A stretch of DNA of 23,967 nt, from positions 1 to 23,967 of IMG/VR virus record IMGVR_UViG_3300036792_000105; one strand, 5' to 3'. The notes under the pieces are model-generated. The model had not been told where the DNA came from. It did not search any database and worked only from the letters and a program-made list of their open reading frames with translations. Of this stretch, positions 19,291 through 23,925 are shown piece after piece (the stretch's first letter is position 1; the number at the start of each line of letters is the position of its first letter). Both the position numbers and the translations under genes were made by a program. Source of the DNA: a virus.

Positions 19291-20961
19291 ATGGCTACGG
19301 CCCTTATCGACTACGAAGAGGAAATCTTCGGCTCGCAGGAACCTCGGTTGTGGACAGCCCCCGACAGGCACCGCACCGAGGTTTCCGGCTGCCCGTCATG
19401 TGCCGTGAATGACGACGGCTTCCGCGATATAGCCTGCGGGAACTACCTTTCCACCGAAATGCTCGCCTGGGCTAAGGGATTCGGCTACAAGCCCGACCCG
19501 TGGCAAGAATGGGTCATCACCGAAGCCTGCGGCATCAAGCCGAACGGCCGGTGGAGCAGCTTCGAGAACGACGTAATCGTCTCCCGCCAGAACGGCAAGG
19601 GCACAATCCTCGAAATCCGCGAGCTGGCGGGCATGTTCGTACTCGGTGAAGAACTCATCATCCACACTGCCCACGAACTGAAGACCGCGCAGGAGCATTT
19701 CCGCCGCGTTGTATCGACTATTGAGAACTACCCGGCCCTGTCGCGCCGCCTCAAGGGAAAGCCCCGCGCCAGCCACGGTGAAGAAGCCATCGAGCTGTTG
19801 TCAGAGCCTACTCTGATCTTCGGCAGCGGACGACGCCGCATGTACAAGCCGGTAGCGCCCCGTCTGCGGTTCCTGGCGCGGTCCCGTGGTTCGGCTCGTG
19901 GTTTTACCTGTAACTGCCTGATCTACGACGAAGCGATGATCCTCACGGCTGAAGCTGTCGGCGCGTCGATGCCCACCATGGCCGCCGTTCCCAACTCCCA
20001 GATGTGGCTGACGGGCTCGGCCGGCCTGGAAGACTCCGAACAGCTCGGGCGCTCACGGCGCAGGATCGTCCATAACACCAGGGACCTCTTCGGAGCCGAG
20101 TGGAGCATCCGCCCGCACACCGCTACGTGCCCCGTGGACCGTACTCACGGCCGGGCAACGAACAACTACGTGGTCTGCGGCGAGCACGACGACCGTGACG
20201 ACCCGGTGGCGTGGGCGAAGGCCAACCCGGCGTTCGGCTACCGCCTGTCGGCGGACTTCACCAAGAACGAGATGGCTACGCTGGCCGTTGTCGAGTTCGA
20301 CCGCGAGCGCCTGGGCGTCGGCCAGTGGCCTGCGGAGGACGAAGCGTGGAAGGTAGTGTCCGAAGACCTGTTCAAGAGCCTTACCGAGAACCCGGGGACG
20401 CCTGCGCGCACCGCGCAGTTCGCGTTCGCCCTGGACGTCGATGAAGACGGCACCAGCGCGACGATCGCGGTCTCCTGGGTGCACAAGGACGGCTACCTGG
20501 TCATGGAAATCCCCAAGAACTGCTCGCGTCCGGGTACGAACTGGGTTGTGGAGCGCCTGATCGAGCTGGAGGCCAAGTACAAGCCCCTTGCGATCGTCGC
20601 ACCGCGCACCGGACCCGCTGCCGGCCTCGGTGACGACCTCGAAAAGCGCTGGGAGAAGCACCCCAAGTTCGGGTCCATCCTCATCCGGCCCGGGTCGGCC
20701 GACGAGGCAGCGGCGTTCGCGTGGTTCATCCAGCAGTGCAAGGACGATAAGAGGCCGCTGCGGCACCTGGGCCAGGAACGCGGGTACAAGCTATGGCACG
20801 CCGTGGGAACGGCCGAGAAGCGCAATGTAGGCGACGGAGGGGAGACCTGGAGCCGCCGGGACAGCATCACCGACATCACCCCGGCTACGGCCTGCAATCT
20901 GGCGGCATGGGGCCTGAACAAGAAGCGCAGGAACTACAACCTGCTGGCTTCTATCGGGTAG
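19291..20961 (+). CDS. Terminase large subunit
   Basis: 556 residues, typical for an actinophage large terminase. The ATPase has an unusual Walker A loop SRQNGKGT (about residues 97-104), Walker B CLIYDEA with the catalytic Glu (about residues 209-215), and the LTGSAG coupling motif. The nuclease half begins FALDVDEDGTSATIAVSW, supplying the first metal-binding Asp. It cleaves concatemers and drives DNA into the prohead through the portal. ATG 19291 has no good ribosome site, so it may rely on coupling to the gene ending nine bases upstream. It lies on the strand opposite to portal and capsid genes and is the last gene of the plus operon, facing the tRNA array. Confidence 0.95.
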   Translation: MATALIDYEEEIFGSQEPRLWTAPDRHRTEVSGCPSCAVNDDGFRDIACGNYLSTEMLAWAKGFGYKPDPWQEWVITEACGIKPNGRWSSFENDVIVSRQNGKGTILEIRELAGMFVLGEELIIHTAHELKTAQEHFRRVVSTIENYPALSRRLKGKPRASHGEEAIELLSEPTLIFGSGRRRMYKPVAPRLRFLARSRGSARGFTCNCLIYDEAMILTAEAVGASMPTMAAVPNSQMWLTGSAGLEDSEQLGRSRRRIVHNTRDLFGAEWSIRPHTATCPVDRTHGRATNNYVVCGEHDDRDDPVAWAKANPAFGYRLSADFTKNEMATLAVVEFDRERLGVGQWPAEDEAWKVVSEDLFKSLTENPGTPARTAQFAFALDVDEDGTSATIAVSWVHKDGYLVMEIPKNCSRPGTNWVVERLIELEAKYKPLAIVAPRTGPAAGLGDDLEKRWEKHPKFGSILIRPGSADEAAAFAWFIQQCKDDKRPLRHLGQERGYKLWHAVGTAEKRNVGDGGETWSRRDSITDITPATACNLAAWGLNKKRRNYNLLASIG

Positions 20962-21137: not shown

Positions 21138-21156
21138 CACAGTGATAAGCATACAG

Positions 21157-21228
21157 TAGTTCCGCCGGGACTCGAACCCGGATTTGCCGCTTAGGGGGCG
21201 GCAGCTCTCTCCGTTGAACTACGGAACT
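21157..21228 (-). tRNA. tRNA-Arg(CCT)
   Basis: Full cloverleaf: acceptor AGTTCCG/CGGAACT, D stem GTTC/GAGC, anticodon stem GCCGC/GCGGC with loop CCCCTAA (anticodon CCT, codon AGG), T-arm CCGGG-TTCGAGT-CCCGG, A73. Position 33 is C instead of the near-universal U. CCA is not encoded. Confidence 0.85.
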
Positions 21229-21232
21229 TCAG

Positions 21233-21304
21233 ACGCGGATGTCGGAGTCGAACCGACTCATGTGAGGGTTGCAATCTCACGCCTTCCCACTTGGCAAATC
21301 CGCG
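21233..21304 (-). tRNA. tRNA-Cys(GCA)
   Basis: Acceptor CGCGGAT/ATCCGCG, anticodon loop TTGCAAC, T-arm GTCGG-TTCGACT-CCGAC. Discriminator U73, a tRNA-Cys identity base, agrees with the GCA anticodon. Confidence 0.9.
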
Positions 21305-21307
21305 TGG

Positions 21308-21376
21308 TATCTCTGCCGGGAGTCCGACCCGGTTTCCAGCCTTCGGAGGGCCAGATCTCAGTGCGTGAGCAGAGAC
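21308..21376 (-). tRNA. Non-canonical tRNA-Arg(CCG)-like
   Basis: Acceptor GTCTCTG/CAGAGAT (G1-U72), anticodon arm TGGCC-CTCCGAA-GGCTG with U33 and anticodon CCG (Arg, CGG), and a 5-bp T stem. The T-loop is TCGGACT, lacking TTC. The D-arm is a 4-bp stem CTCA/TGAG with a 5-base loop CGCAC, lacking GG; it abuts the acceptor with no bases 8-9 and leaves 3 bases before the anticodon stem. The element at 23535-23602 has the same layout. Confidence 0.6.
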
Positions 21377-21378
21377 AG

Positions 21379-21455
21379 TACCAGTAGATGGAATCGAACC
21401 ACCGTTGCCGAAGCGGTCGGTTTACAGCCGACGTGCCCTCCACAGGCTTACTGGC
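21379..21455 (-). tRNA. tRNA-Tyr(GTA)
   Basis: Acceptor GCCAGTA/TACTGGT (G1-U72), anticodon stem GTCGG/CCGAC with loop CTGTAAA, a 12-base variable region, and T-arm GGTGG-TTCGATT-CCATC, A73. The variable region is short for a class II tRNA-Tyr. Confidence 0.9.
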
Positions 21456-21460
21456 ATGGT

Positions 21461-21556
21461 TCTCGCCGCCTTACGAAGTAACACCACCCTAGACGGTCGG
21501 AACAGGGGGCACCTTCTTCATCCAGACAGACCGCCCAGTAGGACTAGGCGGCGAGA
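21461..21556 (-). ncRNA. Spacer RNA closed by a 10-bp perfect stem
   Basis: TCTCGCCGCC (21461-21470) pairs perfectly with GGCGGCGAGA (21547-21556) around a 76-base interior that holds a 4-bp/3-base hairpin (TTAC-TTC-GTAA) and CGGTC/GACCG. It lies between tRNA-Tyr and tRNA-His. No T-arm or anticodon arm is visible. It may be a processing structure or an unknown RNA. Confidence 0.4.
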
Positions 21557-21557
21557 G

Positions 21558-21630
21558 AGGGTCGTGCGGGAGTCGAACCCGCTCACACTTGGGTCACAGC
21601 CAAGTCTCGCAACCGTTTGAGTTACGACCC
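21558..21630 (-). tRNA. tRNA-His(GTG)
   Basis: Acceptor GGGTCGT/ACGACCC, anticodon stem CTTGG/CCAAG with loop CTGTGAC, and T-arm GCGGG-TTCGACT-CCCGC. The base at -1 is C, not the G typical of tRNA-His. Confidence 0.88.
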
Positions 21631-21632
21631 GG

Positions 21633-21704
21633 TACCTCTCAAGGGAATCGAACCCTAAGTCATCGGTTTGTAGGACCGTTACTCTGCCATTGAGCTAAAG
21701 AGGC
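21633..21704 (-). tRNA. tRNA-Val(TAC)
   Basis: Acceptor GCCTCTT/GAGAGGT (G1-U72), D-loop with AATGG, anticodon loop CCTACAA (TAC) on a 4-bp core stem CGGT/ACCG, and T-arm TAGGG-TTCGATT-CCCTT. Position 33 is C instead of U. Confidence 0.82.
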
Positions 21705-21745
21705 TTGGTCCCCCGTAGATTTCCGCCATAGAGGGGTCAGGCGCG

Positions 21746-21818
21746 TATTGCCGGAGGGAGTCGAACCCCCGCTCTCCTGGTTCGTAGCCAGGTGTATTAT
21801 CCGTTCTACCACGGCAAC
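21746..21818 (-). tRNA. tRNA-Arg(ACG)
   Basis: Acceptor GTTGCCG/CGGCAAT (G1-U72), anticodon stem CCTGG/CCAGG with loop CTACGAA, and T-arm GGGGG-TTCGACT-CCCTC, A73. Reading CGC would require A34 deamination to inosine by host TadA. Confidence 0.9.
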
Positions 21819-21819
21819 G

Positions 21820-21894
21820 CGAGACCAACGGGACTCGAACCCGTACCCTCCACCTTGACAGGGTGGTGCATTATTCCTGTTTTGCTATGATCCC
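21820..21894 (-). tRNA. tRNA-Asp(GTC)
   Basis: Acceptor GGGATCA/TGGTCTC, anticodon stem CCACC/GGTGG with loop CTGTCAA, T-arm ACGGG-TTCGAGT-CCCGT. G73 matches Asp identity. Confidence 0.92.
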
Positions 21895-21899
21895 ATGAC

Positions 21900-22000
21900 C
21901 CCCGTGCGGGAGAGTTGAACTCCGACTCAGTGCCGTTATGCGCATCCCGGTACCAGGCTGACACAGATGCACGCGCACTTCAGATCCCTACGGACACGGG
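21900..22000 (-). ncRNA. tRNA-like element: acceptor and T-arm with one long hairpin (second copy of type)
   Basis: Acceptor CCCGTGT/GCACGGG is 7 bp with one wobble. The T-arm is CGGAG-TTCAACT-CTCCC (C49/C65 mismatch). The about 70 bases between hold a nested hairpin: AGTGC with GCACT outside, GTGCATC with GATGCGC inside. No GG D-loop or anticodon arm is seen. The layout resembles the element at 21058-21137, though the sequences are unrelated. Confidence 0.5.
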
Positions 22001-22022
22001 GACGATGCGGCTTTCACCGCAG

Positions 22023-22095
22023 CTGACCAAGCTGGATTCGAACCAGCATCACCTGGATTAACAGTCCAGTGCTTTTCCAGTTAAGCTATAGGCCA
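22023..22095 (-). tRNA. tRNA-Asn(GTT)
   Basis: Acceptor TGGCCTA/TTGGTCA (one U6-U67 mismatch), anticodon stem CTGGA/TCCAG with loop CTGTTAA, T-arm GCTGG-TTCGAAT-CCAGC, G73. Confidence 0.9.
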
Positions 22096-22099
22096 TGGA

Positions 22100-22166
22100 A
22101 GCGGGAGCCGACTCGAACGGCATCTCCAGATTATGAGCCTGGTATGGTTCCATTCCACTATCCCGC
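22100..22166 (-). tRNA. tRNA-Met(CAT), compact
   Basis: Anticodon stem CCAGG/TCTGG with loop CTCATAA, D-arm TGG-AATGGAA-CCA, T-loop TTCGAGT on a 4-bp stem, and acceptor GCGGGA/TCCCGC. The acceptor plus T stem is two bases shorter than usual, and the gene is only 66 bases plus discriminator. The anticodon stem has no GGG/CCC run, so this is not a typical initiator. Confidence 0.75.
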
Positions 22167-22168
22167 AG

Positions 22169-22239
22169 TAGCCCTACAGGGACTCGAACCCTGTTTACGC
22201 ACTTGAAAGGCGCGCTTCCTACCTATAGAAGATAGGGCC
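22169..22239 (-). tRNA. tRNA-Glu(TTC)
   Basis: Acceptor GGCCCTA/TAGGGCT (G1-U72), anticodon stem CGCGC/GTGCG with loop CTTTCAA, a 4-base variable loop, and T-arm CAGGG-TTCGAGT-CCCTG. Confidence 0.9.
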
Positions 22240-22243
22240 GTAG

Positions 22244-22279
22244 CACCCTCACTATAGCACTGATCAGGTGCCGAGGGTG
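22244..22279 (-). other. 7-bp hairpin between the two tRNA-Glu genes
   Basis: CACCCTC (22244-22250) pairs with GAGGGTG (22273-22279), with GCAC/GTGC inside closing a 7-base loop CTGATCA on the minus strand. There is no T-tract, so it is more likely a processing hairpin or a mini-RNA than a terminator. Confidence 0.45.
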
Positions 22280-22281
22280 AG

Positions 22282-22354
22282 TGCTCGTACAGGGGTTTGA
22301 ACCCTGGATCTCTACCTTGAGAGGGTAGCGACTTAACCGCTTGTCCACACGAGC
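22282..22354 (-). tRNA. tRNA-Glu(CTC)
   Basis: Acceptor GCTCGTG/TACGAGC, anticodon stem CTACC/GGTAG with loop CTCTCAA, T-arm CAGGG-TTCAAAC-CCCTG, A73. It pairs with the neighbouring Glu(TTC) to cover both Glu codons. Confidence 0.9.
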
Positions 22355-22358
22355 AGGG

Positions 22359-22431
22359 TGATTCCCCTGGGACTCGAACCCAGACACACCGGATTAAAAG
22401 TCCGTCGCTCTGCCAATTGCGCTAGAGAATC
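22359..22431 (-). tRNA. tRNA-Lys(TTT)
   Basis: Acceptor GATTCTC/GGGAATC, anticodon loop CTTTTAA on a 4-bp core stem, T-arm CTGGG-TTCGAGT-CCCAG, A73. Confidence 0.9.
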
Positions 22432-22432
22432 G

Positions 22433-22507
22433 TACCGCAGACGGGGCTCGAACCCGTGCATTGCCCCATTATGAGTAGGGTGCCTTAACCAGCTTGGCCA
22501 CTGCGGA
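22433..22507 (-). tRNA. tRNA with CAT anticodon (Met or Ile2)
   Basis: Anticodon arm CCCTA-CTCATAA-TGGGG, acceptor TCCGCAG/CTGCGGT with bases 1 and 72 unpaired (U-U), T-arm ACGGG-TTCGAGC-CCCGT. The 1-72 mismatch is an initiator feature, and the anticodon stem has C-G pairs at its base. It could be initiator Met, elongator Met, or lysidine-modified Ile2. Confidence 0.85.
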
Positions 22508-22508
22508 G

Positions 22509-22581
22509 TACCGACTATAGGAATCGAACCTATCACAAGAACCTTATCAGAGTTCTCCGAGCGACCAGCTCTGCAATCGGC
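22509..22581 (-). tRNA. tRNA-Ile(GAT)
   Basis: Acceptor GCCGATT/AGTCGGT (G1-U72), anticodon arm GAACT-CTGATAA-GGTTC, T-arm ATAGG-TTCGATT-CCTAT, A73. Confidence 0.9.
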
Positions 22582-22653
22582 TTGTCTACCCTTTCACCGG
22601 CTATTCGGGGTTCCCTTTTACAGGATTCCGGTTGGCGATAGTCATTCCAGCCG

Positions 22654-22737
22654 TAGAGGGACGACGAGTCGAACGCCATAGCTTTCACCACGATCCGCTT
22701 TCGAGGCGGTCCCCATCACCGTCAGGGTTGACCCTCC
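22654..22737 (-). tRNA. tRNA-Ser(CGA)
   Basis: Class II with a long variable arm. Acceptor GGAGGGT/TCCCTCT (G1-U72), anticodon loop CTCGAAA on GCGG/CCGC-type pairs, T-arm TGGCG-TTCGACT-CGTCG with two wobbles. The discriminator reads A rather than the usual G for Ser. Confidence 0.8.
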
Positions 22738-22857
22738 ATGTGCCATCGTCCGGGATCAGTTACCCGCTAGCAGGTAAAGGGCGCGCACCCTGGACGTTTA
22801 CCCCGAAGTGCCCCGGTTTGATTTGGAACTTCGAGGAAGGCGTAGGCTACGCCCTAG
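22738..22857 (-). other. 120-base structured spacer between tRNA-Ser genes
   Basis: No tRNA signature is found. Several hairpins are possible on the minus strand: GGCGTA/TACGCC with a 3-base loop, CGAAGT/ACTTCG, GGTAAA/TTTACC enclosing GGG/CCC, and TTACC/GGTAA. Some are mutually exclusive. The density of structure exceeds a plain spacer. No function can be assigned. Confidence 0.35.
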
Positions 22858-22943
22858 AGGAGAGTGCGGGATTCGAACCCGCGAGAGTTTGACCCCTGCC
22901 AAGTTTCCAACCTGGTGCACTAGACCGACTATGCGAACTCTCC
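22858..22943 (-). tRNA. tRNA-Ser(GGA)
   Basis: Class II with long variable arm. Acceptor GGAGAGT/ACTCTCC, anticodon arm CCAGG-TTGGAAA-CTTGG, T-arm GCGGG-TTCGAAT-CCCGC. Confidence 0.9.
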
Positions 22944-22947
22944 AAAG

Positions 22948-23031
22948 CCGAAGGAAGAGTACTCGAAACTCAGGGCTTTCACCCCCATCTCGCTAGCAAC
23001 GAGCGCCCGTGCCCTGACGGGTTTTCCTCCG
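22948..23031 (-). tRNA. tRNA-Ser(GCT)
   Basis: Class II, easy to miss because the T stem is AT-rich (TGAGT-TTCGAGT-ACTCT). Acceptor CGGAGGA/TCCTTCG, D stem CCCGT/ACGGG with CAGGGC loop, anticodon loop TTGCTAG on CTCG/CGAG, long variable arm, and G73 as in Ser tRNAs. Confidence 0.85.
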
Positions 23032-23037
23032 ATGAAA

Positions 23038-23096
23038 GGGACAGAAGCGAGTCGCAGTTTACGCGTTTAATCCACCGGCAGATCTGCTTCTGTCCC
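23038..23096 (-). ncRNA. Spacer RNA closed by an 11-bp perfect stem
   Basis: GGGACAGAAGC (23038-23048) pairs perfectly with GCTTCTGTCCC (23086-23096). Inside is a GCAG/CTGC-type hairpin and a TGCGACT loop reminiscent of a T-loop with one change. At 59 bases it is too short for a normal tRNA. It may be an armless tRNA relic or a processing structure. Confidence 0.4.
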
Positions 23097-23098
23097 CG

Positions 23099-23171
23099 TA
23101 TCCGGTGCGGGACTCGAACCCGCAGCATCACATCTCCTCAAGATGAGTGGTCGGCCATTGCCTAACCGGAC
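23099..23171 (-). tRNA. tRNA-Leu(GAG), short variable arm
   Basis: Acceptor GTCCGGT/ACCGGAT (G1-U72), D region with AATGGCCGACCAC, anticodon loop TTGAGGA on CATC/GATG, variable GATGCT (6 bases), T-arm GCGGG-TTCGAGT-CCCGC, A73. The D-arm is of Leu type, but the long class II variable arm is missing. Confidence 0.85.
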
Positions 23172-23177
23172 GTGCGC

Positions 23178-23219
23178 CGAGAGTGTTCCTACCTGGAGGG
23201 ATTCGAACCCCCACTCTCG
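23178..23219 (-). other. T-arm hairpin enclosed by an 8-bp stem (tRNA remnant?)
   Basis: A T-arm GGGGG-TTCGAAT-CCCTC is followed by AGGTAGGAA and enclosed by CGAGAGTG/CACTCTCG (8 bp, perfect). No matching acceptor 5' strand or anticodon arm fits before the next gene; TTCTC-CTAAGTC-GAGAG upstream would leave only one variable base. Best read as a truncated tRNA or a T-arm minihelix. Confidence 0.45.
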
Positions 23220-23245
23220 ACTTAGGAGAAATGCATTTCCCCTCG

Positions 23246-23316
23246 TGCGGTAACCGGGGCTCGAACCCGGACCCCGAACTTGGCAAGCTCGGATGATTCC
23301 CTTTCACCATTACCAC
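23246..23316 (-). tRNA. tRNA-Gly(GCC)
   Basis: Acceptor GTGGTAA/TTACCGC, anticodon arm CGAGC-TTGCCAA-GTTCG, 4-base variable loop, T-arm CCGGG-TTCGAGC-CCCGG. Confidence 0.9.
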
Positions 23317-23369
23317 TGGGTCCGGTTCCTTTTTGGCTTAGGGAGCCGACAAGCATCTAAGGTTCTGTC

Positions 23370-23451
23370 GTGAACGGGTAATTACTCCGTAAAGGCGTCC
23401 CTTTTCCCGTCTCCCGCGAGGCCCTTACGTCCCCCGGAAACTTCGGTTCAC
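23370..23451 (-). other. Structured spacer between tRNA-Gly and tRNA-Thr
   Basis: GTGAAC (23370-23375) pairs with GTTCAC (23446-23451). Inside, CCG-AAGTTTC-CGG, GTAAGG/CCTTTAC and CGG/CCG stems are possible. No anticodon arm with a 7-base loop was found. Function unknown. Confidence 0.35.
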
Positions 23452-23457
23452 ACAACG

Positions 23458-23530
23458 AGCCACAATCGGGATTCGAACCCGAGACCTCAGCCTTACCATG
23501 GCCGCGCTCTACCGCTGGAGCTATTGTGAC
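23458..23530 (-). tRNA. tRNA-Thr(GGT)
   Basis: Acceptor GTCACAA/TTGTGGC, anticodon arm CGGCC-ATGGTAA-GGCTG, T-arm TCGGG-TTCGAAT-CCCGA. Confidence 0.9.
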
Positions 23531-23534
23531 ATGG

Positions 23535-23602
23535 AGCCTTCGTCGGGTGTCAATCCCAACCTCCCGCGTTACAAGGGCGGGGTCGTAGTCGTACGCGAAG
23601 AC
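23535..23602 (-). tRNA. Non-canonical tRNA-Thr(TGT)-like
   Basis: Acceptor GTCTTCG/CGAAGGC (7 bp), anticodon arm CCGCC-CTTGTAA-CGCGG with U33 and anticodon TGT (Thr, ACA), T stem TTGGG/CCCGA with loop ATTGACA lacking TTC. The D-arm CGTA-CGAC-TACG has a 4-base loop without GG, abuts the acceptor, and leaves 3 bases before the anticodon stem, the same layout as the element at 21308-21376. A standard tRNA scan may miss it. Confidence 0.6.
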
Positions 23603-23606
23603 TTGG

Positions 23607-23680
23607 TACTCAGTGAGGGATTCGAACCCTCAGCATCGCTGGATCTGAACCAACGTGGTCTGCCTGTTGCCTAACCGAGC
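23607..23680 (-). tRNA. tRNA-Leu(CAG), short variable arm
   Basis: Acceptor GCTCGGT/ACTGAGT (G1-U72), Leu-type D region CAACAGGCAGACCAC, anticodon arm GTTGG-TTCAGAT-CCAGC, variable GATGCT, T-arm GAGGG-TTCGAAT-CCCTC, A73. Closely related to the other two Leu genes. Confidence 0.88.
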
Positions 23681-23773
23681 GGGTGCGGCAGTGATCCAGA
23701 TGCTTCCGGGTGATCAAGTCCGGGTTCTCCGAAATCAATTGGGAGCCTGTCGCATGCACTTTTCACCCCAAAG

Positions 23774-23846
23774 CTGCCGCCCCAGGACTCGAACCTGGAA
23801 TCGCCTGCATCAGACGCAGGAGCCTTGCCGTTTTGGCCAGGCGGCA
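23774..23846 (-). tRNA. tRNA-Gln(CTG)
   Basis: Acceptor TGCCGCC/GGCGGCA, anticodon stem CCTGC/GCAGG with loop GTCTGAT, T-arm CCAGG-TTCGAGT-CCTGG, G73. Confidence 0.9.
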
Positions 23847-23850
23847 TTGG

Positions 23851-23925
23851 TACTCAGGATGGGATTCGAACCCACAGCATCAGGGAGTTTGAAACCCCGT
23901 GGTCTGCCTAGTTGCCTACCCGAGC
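23851..23925 (-). tRNA. tRNA-Leu(CAA), short variable arm
   Basis: Acceptor GCTCGGG/CCTGAGT (G1-U72), GGCAGACCAC D region and GATGCT variable loop shared with the other Leu genes, T-arm GTGGG-TTCGAAT-CCCAT. Aligning to the siblings gives loop TTCAAAC with anticodon CAA. A shifted loop TTTCAAA would give TCA (opal suppressor) but breaks the alignment. Confidence 0.8.

Follow-up and report, generated by a model that had tools for sequence, protein, structure and literature searches.

The IMG/VR record IMGVR_UViG_3300036792_000105 (positions 1-23,967, analysed whole and called the window here) comes from an uncultivated virus and carries two compact tRNA genes, tRNA-Arg(CCG) and tRNA-Thr(TGT). 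Judged by comparison with relatives, the elbow of these tRNAs is rewired and not lost, the G19-C56 pair being exchanged in both genes for another Watson-Crick pair. In tRNAs generally, G19-C56 counts as invariant, a contact that the ribosome, RNase P and many enzymes recognise. With a probability of about 0.8, the two genes would encode tRNAs that work in decoding and have a rewired elbow, serving CGG with arginine and ACA and ACG with threonine; they represent a variety of tRNA and not a novel class of molecule. Both are conserved in related loci, hold recurrent slots in a tRNA array, pair compensatorily and keep identity determinants, and from this we infer that they are transcribed, processed, charged and used by the ribosome.

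On the minus strand the Arg gene divides into GTCTCTG CTCA CGCAC TGAG AT C TGGCC CTCCGAA GGCTG G AAA CCGGG TCGGACT CCCGG CAGAGAT A CCA, and the Thr gene into GTCTTCG CGTA CGAC TACG AC C CCGCC CTTGTAA CGCGG G AGG TTGGG ATTGACA CCCGA CGAAGGC T CCA. Both have a 7-base-pair (bp) acceptor stem, a 7-base anticodon loop with U33 and a purine at 37, a 5-bp T-stem and a 7-base T-loop. Bases 8 and 9 are absent, the D-stem has 4 bp, and the D-loop is below normal size, with five bases in Arg and four in Thr. Neither the D-loop GG nor the T-loop TTC is present as letters in Arg (CGCAC/TCGGACT) or in Thr (CGAC/ATTGACA); G18, R57 and A58 are retained in both. Relatives resolve the bases before the anticodon stem into a link of two bases and an additional pair of the anticodon stem, its sixth (26-44); among 67 distinct compact Arg relatives this pair forms in 66, by five pair types. 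The variable loop has three bases, and the core as a whole is the layout of pyrrolysine tRNA (tRNA-Pyl). An earlier sequence-only reading had proposed the coordinates, anticodons, acceptor and anticodon arms and U33, all of which are borne out by sequence reading and a descriptor scan, as is its 7-base T-loop without a literal TTC. Its D-arm stands in part: the 4-bp stem, the loop of 4-5 bases without GG and the missing bases 8-9 hold, and the supposed three-base spacer gives way to the two link bases plus pair 26-44.

Both genes encode the 3' CCA, which is otherwise found in just 2 of the 21 other tRNAs of the array. ARAGORN, run on the window, calls neither compact gene, and the Rfam tRNA model RF00005 matches neither at E<=1. 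Annotation of tRNA arrays misses entire isoacceptors. A structural descriptor of the layout matches the window at these two places and nowhere else, compared with 0.1 per dinucleotide-shuffled window; in related loci totalling 1.9 Mb it returns 37 matches against 14 in shuffled sequence, and 12 against 0 when a trailing NCCA is added. Although the exact sequences occur on one contig only, as a chance fold or an assembly artefact would predict, the excess over shuffled windows and the homologues on independent contigs make such an origin negligible in probability, and the homologues refute it.

The elbow assignment draws on loops that change in concert. Among compact Arg relatives, the third base of the D-loop varies in step with the third base of the T-loop: relatives with the D-loop CGGAC have the T-loop TTCGACT, and the swapped combinations are CGCAC/TCGGACT in the window, CGCAA/TTGGACT in locus L013, and CGTAT or CGTAC with TTAGACT in two large phages. 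The 19-56 pair is C-G in the window Arg gene, compensating the G19-C56 of relatives; it is U-A in a third phage group and G-C in most others. In the Thr gene the pair is A-U, with identical loops in L013/L015 and G19-C56 in L539. Loci L389 and L369 have genes that are similar over most of their length, with 19 and 56 both different.

A pattern that left 19 and 56 open was run over IMG/VR and, in GTDB, over a single genome for each species, and its matches were divided by stem pairing alone into structured and unstructured. Pair 19-56 is Watson-Crick in 66 of 67 structured distinct compact Arg matches (GC 60, AU 2, CG 2, UA 2; the remaining one is GU), compared with 11 of 43 unstructured distinct matches. 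The corresponding Thr scan gives four of four among structured rows (one GC, three AU) and a mixture among 24 unstructured rows. When the scan matches were permuted, 0 of 200,000 permutations reached 66, a figure that overstates independence, the swaps of close relatives representing one lineage each and about five independent origins, counted by group and not on a formal tree. Because GC accounts for most matches and related sequences do not count as independent, it is the swaps that carry the weight; they fall into the groups of the window and L013, Arg(CCG); G004/G005/G032, Arg(TCT); L369, Arg(TCT); L429, Arg(TCG); and Thr(TGT). The small number of origins weighs against reading the genes as decoding tRNAs with a rewired elbow, as do several local features. 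Position 55 of the Arg gene is C in place of U, leaving the 18-55 contact non-standard, and position 54 of the Thr gene is A in place of U, with the same consequence for 54-58. The Thr anticodon stem has a C-C mismatch at 31-39, present in locus L044 too. Finally, the minimum-energy fold of the Arg gene favours a non-cloverleaf by 2.6 kcal/mol, in a calculation that leaves out tertiary contacts and modifications.

Compensatory exchange of pair 19-56 among relatives runs counter to the earlier suggestion that docking between D-loop and T-loop had been lost. The occurrence of all four Watson-Crick forms of 19-56, and of a compact scaffold for several ordinary amino acids, appears to be new, the exchange of the pair above all; the open-access literature yielded no natural 19-56 swaps or tRNA-Pyl-like phage tRNAs, most subscription papers lying outside its scope. 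Four Watson-Crick versions in related genes of the same size make it directly testable whether the elbow requires these letters or simply a pair.

Conservation of position and stems points in the same direction. A search from the terminase gene, the handle for syntenic relatives, gave nine loci, six of which carry this array with its order largely preserved; relatives are mostly metagenomic. In the slot beside Cys, a compact Arg tRNA is present in L010, L012, L013/L015 and L014; in L011 such a gene lies close by. Following Thr(GGT), the occupant of the slot is a compact Thr(TGT) in L012 and L013/L015, and L010, L011 and L014 have an ordinary Thr(TGT) there; this swapping of compact and ordinary genes in one slot with the same anticodon is as expected of a decoding tRNA. 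A descriptor scan of related loci adds a further compact Thr homologue in L044. The gap-free alignment A3 of nine compact Arg tRNAs was scored over the four stems together with 26-44 and the tertiary contact 19-56: pairing holds in 96.1% of cells, compared with 32-47% when the partner is slid, and 22 of 23 pairs have changes on both sides. Homologues that failed to keep acceptor and anticodon pairing had been named beforehand as grounds for refutation, and this compensatory record instead favours the genes, upholding the claim that their common architecture is real, unusual and not the result of random decay. Both genes belong to a broader compact family, some of whose forms have ordinary GG and TTC. 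BLASTN with four compact tRNAs found no matches among phages, and with a Percastrophe Arg query it found cultured relatives; a further 22 records sampled by capsid yielded no more compact arrays at the level of the Arg model. Decayed tRNA pseudogenes, within an array as large and partly redundant as this one, would also be missed by standard tRNA finders and have loops off consensus, as these genes do. Stems held by compensatory changes, encoded CCA, covarying loops and anticodons constant across phages nonetheless make decay highly improbable, and it was rejected on the covariation of stems and loops.

The amino-acid assignments follow from retained determinants. A20 is the main Arg determinant of Escherichia coli arginyl-tRNA synthetase, within a set comprising A20, C35, U/G36 and A/G73 (PMC9976931). 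The Arg gene has this set, with A20 at 21362, the CCG anticodon and A73. Although unforced, A20 is kept in every compact Arg tRNA examined (A3 and a further set), even where base 19 has changed, and is absent from compact Thr tRNAs; the later free-position scan is no evidence for A20 because A20 was part of its pattern. Thr identity depends on anticodon bases G35 and U36. The Thr gene has a TGT anticodon and U73, as in the canonical Thr(GGT) of the array (23457-23530). CGG makes up 22% of Arg codons in the window, and ACA plus ACG make up 41% of Thr codons. Among engineered tRNAs, those built on the tRNA-Pyl scaffold, ZtRNA with GG/UUCRA being one, undergo charging and function in vivo (PMC6337575); the compact layout is therefore no obstacle.

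The sequence-only reading had also entertained RNAs with another job, and tRNA-shaped decoys, regulators or non-ribosomal amino-acid donors are conceivable. The L1 stalk, L5 and RNase P read elbow contacts, so that an altered elbow could divert a tRNA, and the flat face of pair 19-56 is the elbow surface read by the ribosome and RNase P (PMC4810234). In addition, most Kribbella have a canonical Arg(CCG) beside a compact one, and the compact copy is not needed there for decoding. Nevertheless, the exchange of slots with canonical Thr(TGT) and the retention of A20, other synthetase determinants and the anticodon bases disfavour another job, and since any Watson-Crick 19-56 pair should offer a similar flat face, the pairs retained here should do so as well. 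We consider such a role improbable.

For decoding tRNAs with a rewired elbow, the scaffold would be a tRNA-Pyl-type core without bases 8-9, with a 4-bp D-stem, a D-loop of 3-5 bases, a two-base link, a six-pair anticodon stem and a three-base variable loop. In most family members the small D-loop would still present G18-G19 to the T-loop TTC. In the window genes, C19-G56 (Arg) and A19-U56 (Thr) would stand in for G19-C56, preserving the L-shape and the flat elbow face with other letters. By default the change of letters may reflect drift by compensatory mutation in a small, flexible core; alternatively, it may serve to evade a host factor by which G19-C56 is recognised. Such an adaptive swap would keep the fold and remove the mark from a host tRNA-cutting or tRNA-modifying defence that reads the universal G18G19/TPsiC elbow. 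Phages are known to use their tRNAs against tRNA-cutting defences (PMC10264068, PMC11555353), single arrays (window, L013) hold two genes with two different swaps, and a canonical-size tRNA-Cys of L044 has the same 19-56 pair as the compact Thr of that locus. Moreover, C56 is near-universal among canonical-size tRNA-like matches of the same arrays (378 of 386, the exceptions including antisense artefacts), so the swaps are concentrated. However, no elbow-reading nuclease has been identified, most compact tRNAs retain G19-C56, the escapes described in PMC10264068 map to the anticodon loop, and compensatory drift accounts for the same pattern. Adaptation thus remains a tentative and rather doubtful explanation, and it is correspondingly unlikely that the elbows of compact Arg and Thr tRNAs in large phages of this group, together with those of His and Cys tRNAs in some of them, have been recoded under selection, through other Watson-Crick pairs in place of G19-C56, to go unread by host nucleases, modification enzymes or defence enzymes and still be read by the ribosome.

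Two tRNAs of normal size in related loci also depart from the usual elbow letters. The tRNA-Cys of L044 (3661-3732, plus strand) has AA in place of GG and the T-loop TGTGACT, giving A19-U56 as in the compact Thr of L044. A tRNA-His(GTG) of normal length in L012 (3980-4164) and L014 (13135-13230 (-)) has the D-loop AAAAATTGA without GG and the T-loop AGAGTTA without TTC; one acceptor pair covaries between the two loci, and the gene possibly carries U19-A56.

The window comprises a structural gene block, the large terminase and, following the terminase, the tRNA array on the minus strand (Table 1). A near-identity DNA search of the whole window against phage records gave zero matches. Terminase relatives in cultured phages are below 60% identity (best about 35% among the matches listed) and mostly infect actinobacteria, and for this reason the host is probably an actinobacterium.

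Table 1. Positions of the two compact tRNA genes, their loops and the adjoining features in the window.
Feature	Position	Strand	Details and basis
Large terminase gene	19291-20961	+	Named by homology to annotated phage terminases
tRNA array with both compact genes	21156-23925	-	21 ARAGORN genes; directly after terminase gene
Compact tRNA-Arg(CCG)	21305-21376	-	Body 21308-21376, encoded CCA 21305-21307; sequence, descriptor scan, A3 covariation
Arg T-loop TCGGACT	21321-21327	-	U54=21327, C55=21326, G56=21325
Arg anticodon CCG	21344-21346	-	In loop CTCCGAA 21342-21348
Arg D-loop CGCAC	21361-21365	-	G18=21364, C19=21363, A20=21362; register set by CGGAC relatives
Compact tRNA-Thr(TGT)	23532-23602	-	Body 23535-23602, encoded CCA 23532-23534; sequence, descriptor scan, homologues
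Thr T-loop ATTGACA	23548-23554	-	A54=23554, U55=23553, U56=23552
Thr anticodon TGT	23571-23573	-	In loop CTTGTAA 23569-23575
Thr D-loop CGAC	23588-23591	-	G18=23590, A19=23589

The minus-strand array has several further features. The gene at 23848-23925, labelled SeC(tca) by ARAGORN, occupies a slot that is Leu(CAA) in most relatives and is probably Leu(CAA) itself. ARAGORN misses a Ser(GCT)-like gene at 22947-23033 with a long variable arm, a 4-bp T-stem and an enlarged D-stem, which has same-slot homologues in L010, L012 and L014. It resembles the 8/4 tRNAs of Mukai et al., who in 2017 reportedly found non-canonical tRNAs (8/4, 9/3 and allo-tRNAs) by mining, some of them in phages. Also missed is a Ser(CGA)-like gene in the Ile-Ser gap (22654-22738), with a similar stretch in L014. 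The Tyr-His gap contains 101 bases (21456-21556) with an 11-bp closing stem, TCTCGCCGCCT/AGGCGGCGAGA, and a z of -2.5. The Leu-Gly gap (23172-23244), kept in L013 (8020-8091, minus strand), has a T-arm-like GGGGGTTCGAATCCC, hairpins and a folding z of -3.8.

Among the known systems closest to the window genes is tRNA-Pyl. It shares with them a linker of 0-1 base between acceptor and D-stem, a D-loop of 4-5 bases without GG and a T-loop without TTC, and also a six-pair anticodon stem (in Thr with the 31-39 mismatch) and a three-base variable loop (PMC6337575, PMC7609411). In M. alvus tRNA-Pyl the linker is absent and the D-loop has four bases, as in the window Thr gene. Unlike tRNA-Pyl, in which the invariant interloop pairs are described as missing, the window genes have Arg and Thr anticodons, A20 in Arg and a 19-56 Watson-Crick pair supported by covariation. 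A tRNA-Pyl identity is ruled out by the anticodons CCG and TGT, which are not CUA. A tRNA-Pyl-type scaffold that serves ordinary amino acids would be of use for building orthogonal tRNAs.

The compact core also occurs with canonical interloop pairs, in the engineered ZtRNA and in bovine mitochondrial tRNA-Ser(UGA) (PMC6337575), and the relatives in L010, L011, L012 and L014 share this combination. In contrast to ZtRNA, the compact tRNAs of phage arrays are natural, and the window pair is C-G or A-U where ZtRNA has G-C. Cultured Beephvirinae phages of Streptomyces (Immanuel3, FlowerPower and Manuel groups) have compact Arg(CCT), Ala(TGC) and Trp(CCA) tRNAs that are annotated as ordinary tRNAs or missed; like the window genes they have no linker and a 4-bp D-stem, here with a loop of 3-4 bases, but the compact members read keep G19-C56. 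A restriction of compactness to Arg and Thr was dropped in view of the compact Ala and Trp tRNAs of these cultured phages. Kribbella chromosomes carry a compact Arg(CCG) in most of 38 genomes (L464, L456, L463, L492 and others), besides a canonical Arg(CCG). The idea that the compact gene is the sole reader of CGG in Kribbella was likewise dropped, the same genomes showing a standard Arg(CCG) motif. The 8/4 and 9/3 tRNAs and allo-tRNAs differ in another respect: they have an altered split between acceptor and T-stem and long variable arms (PMC7609411), whereas the window genes have the 7/5 split and a shortened core.

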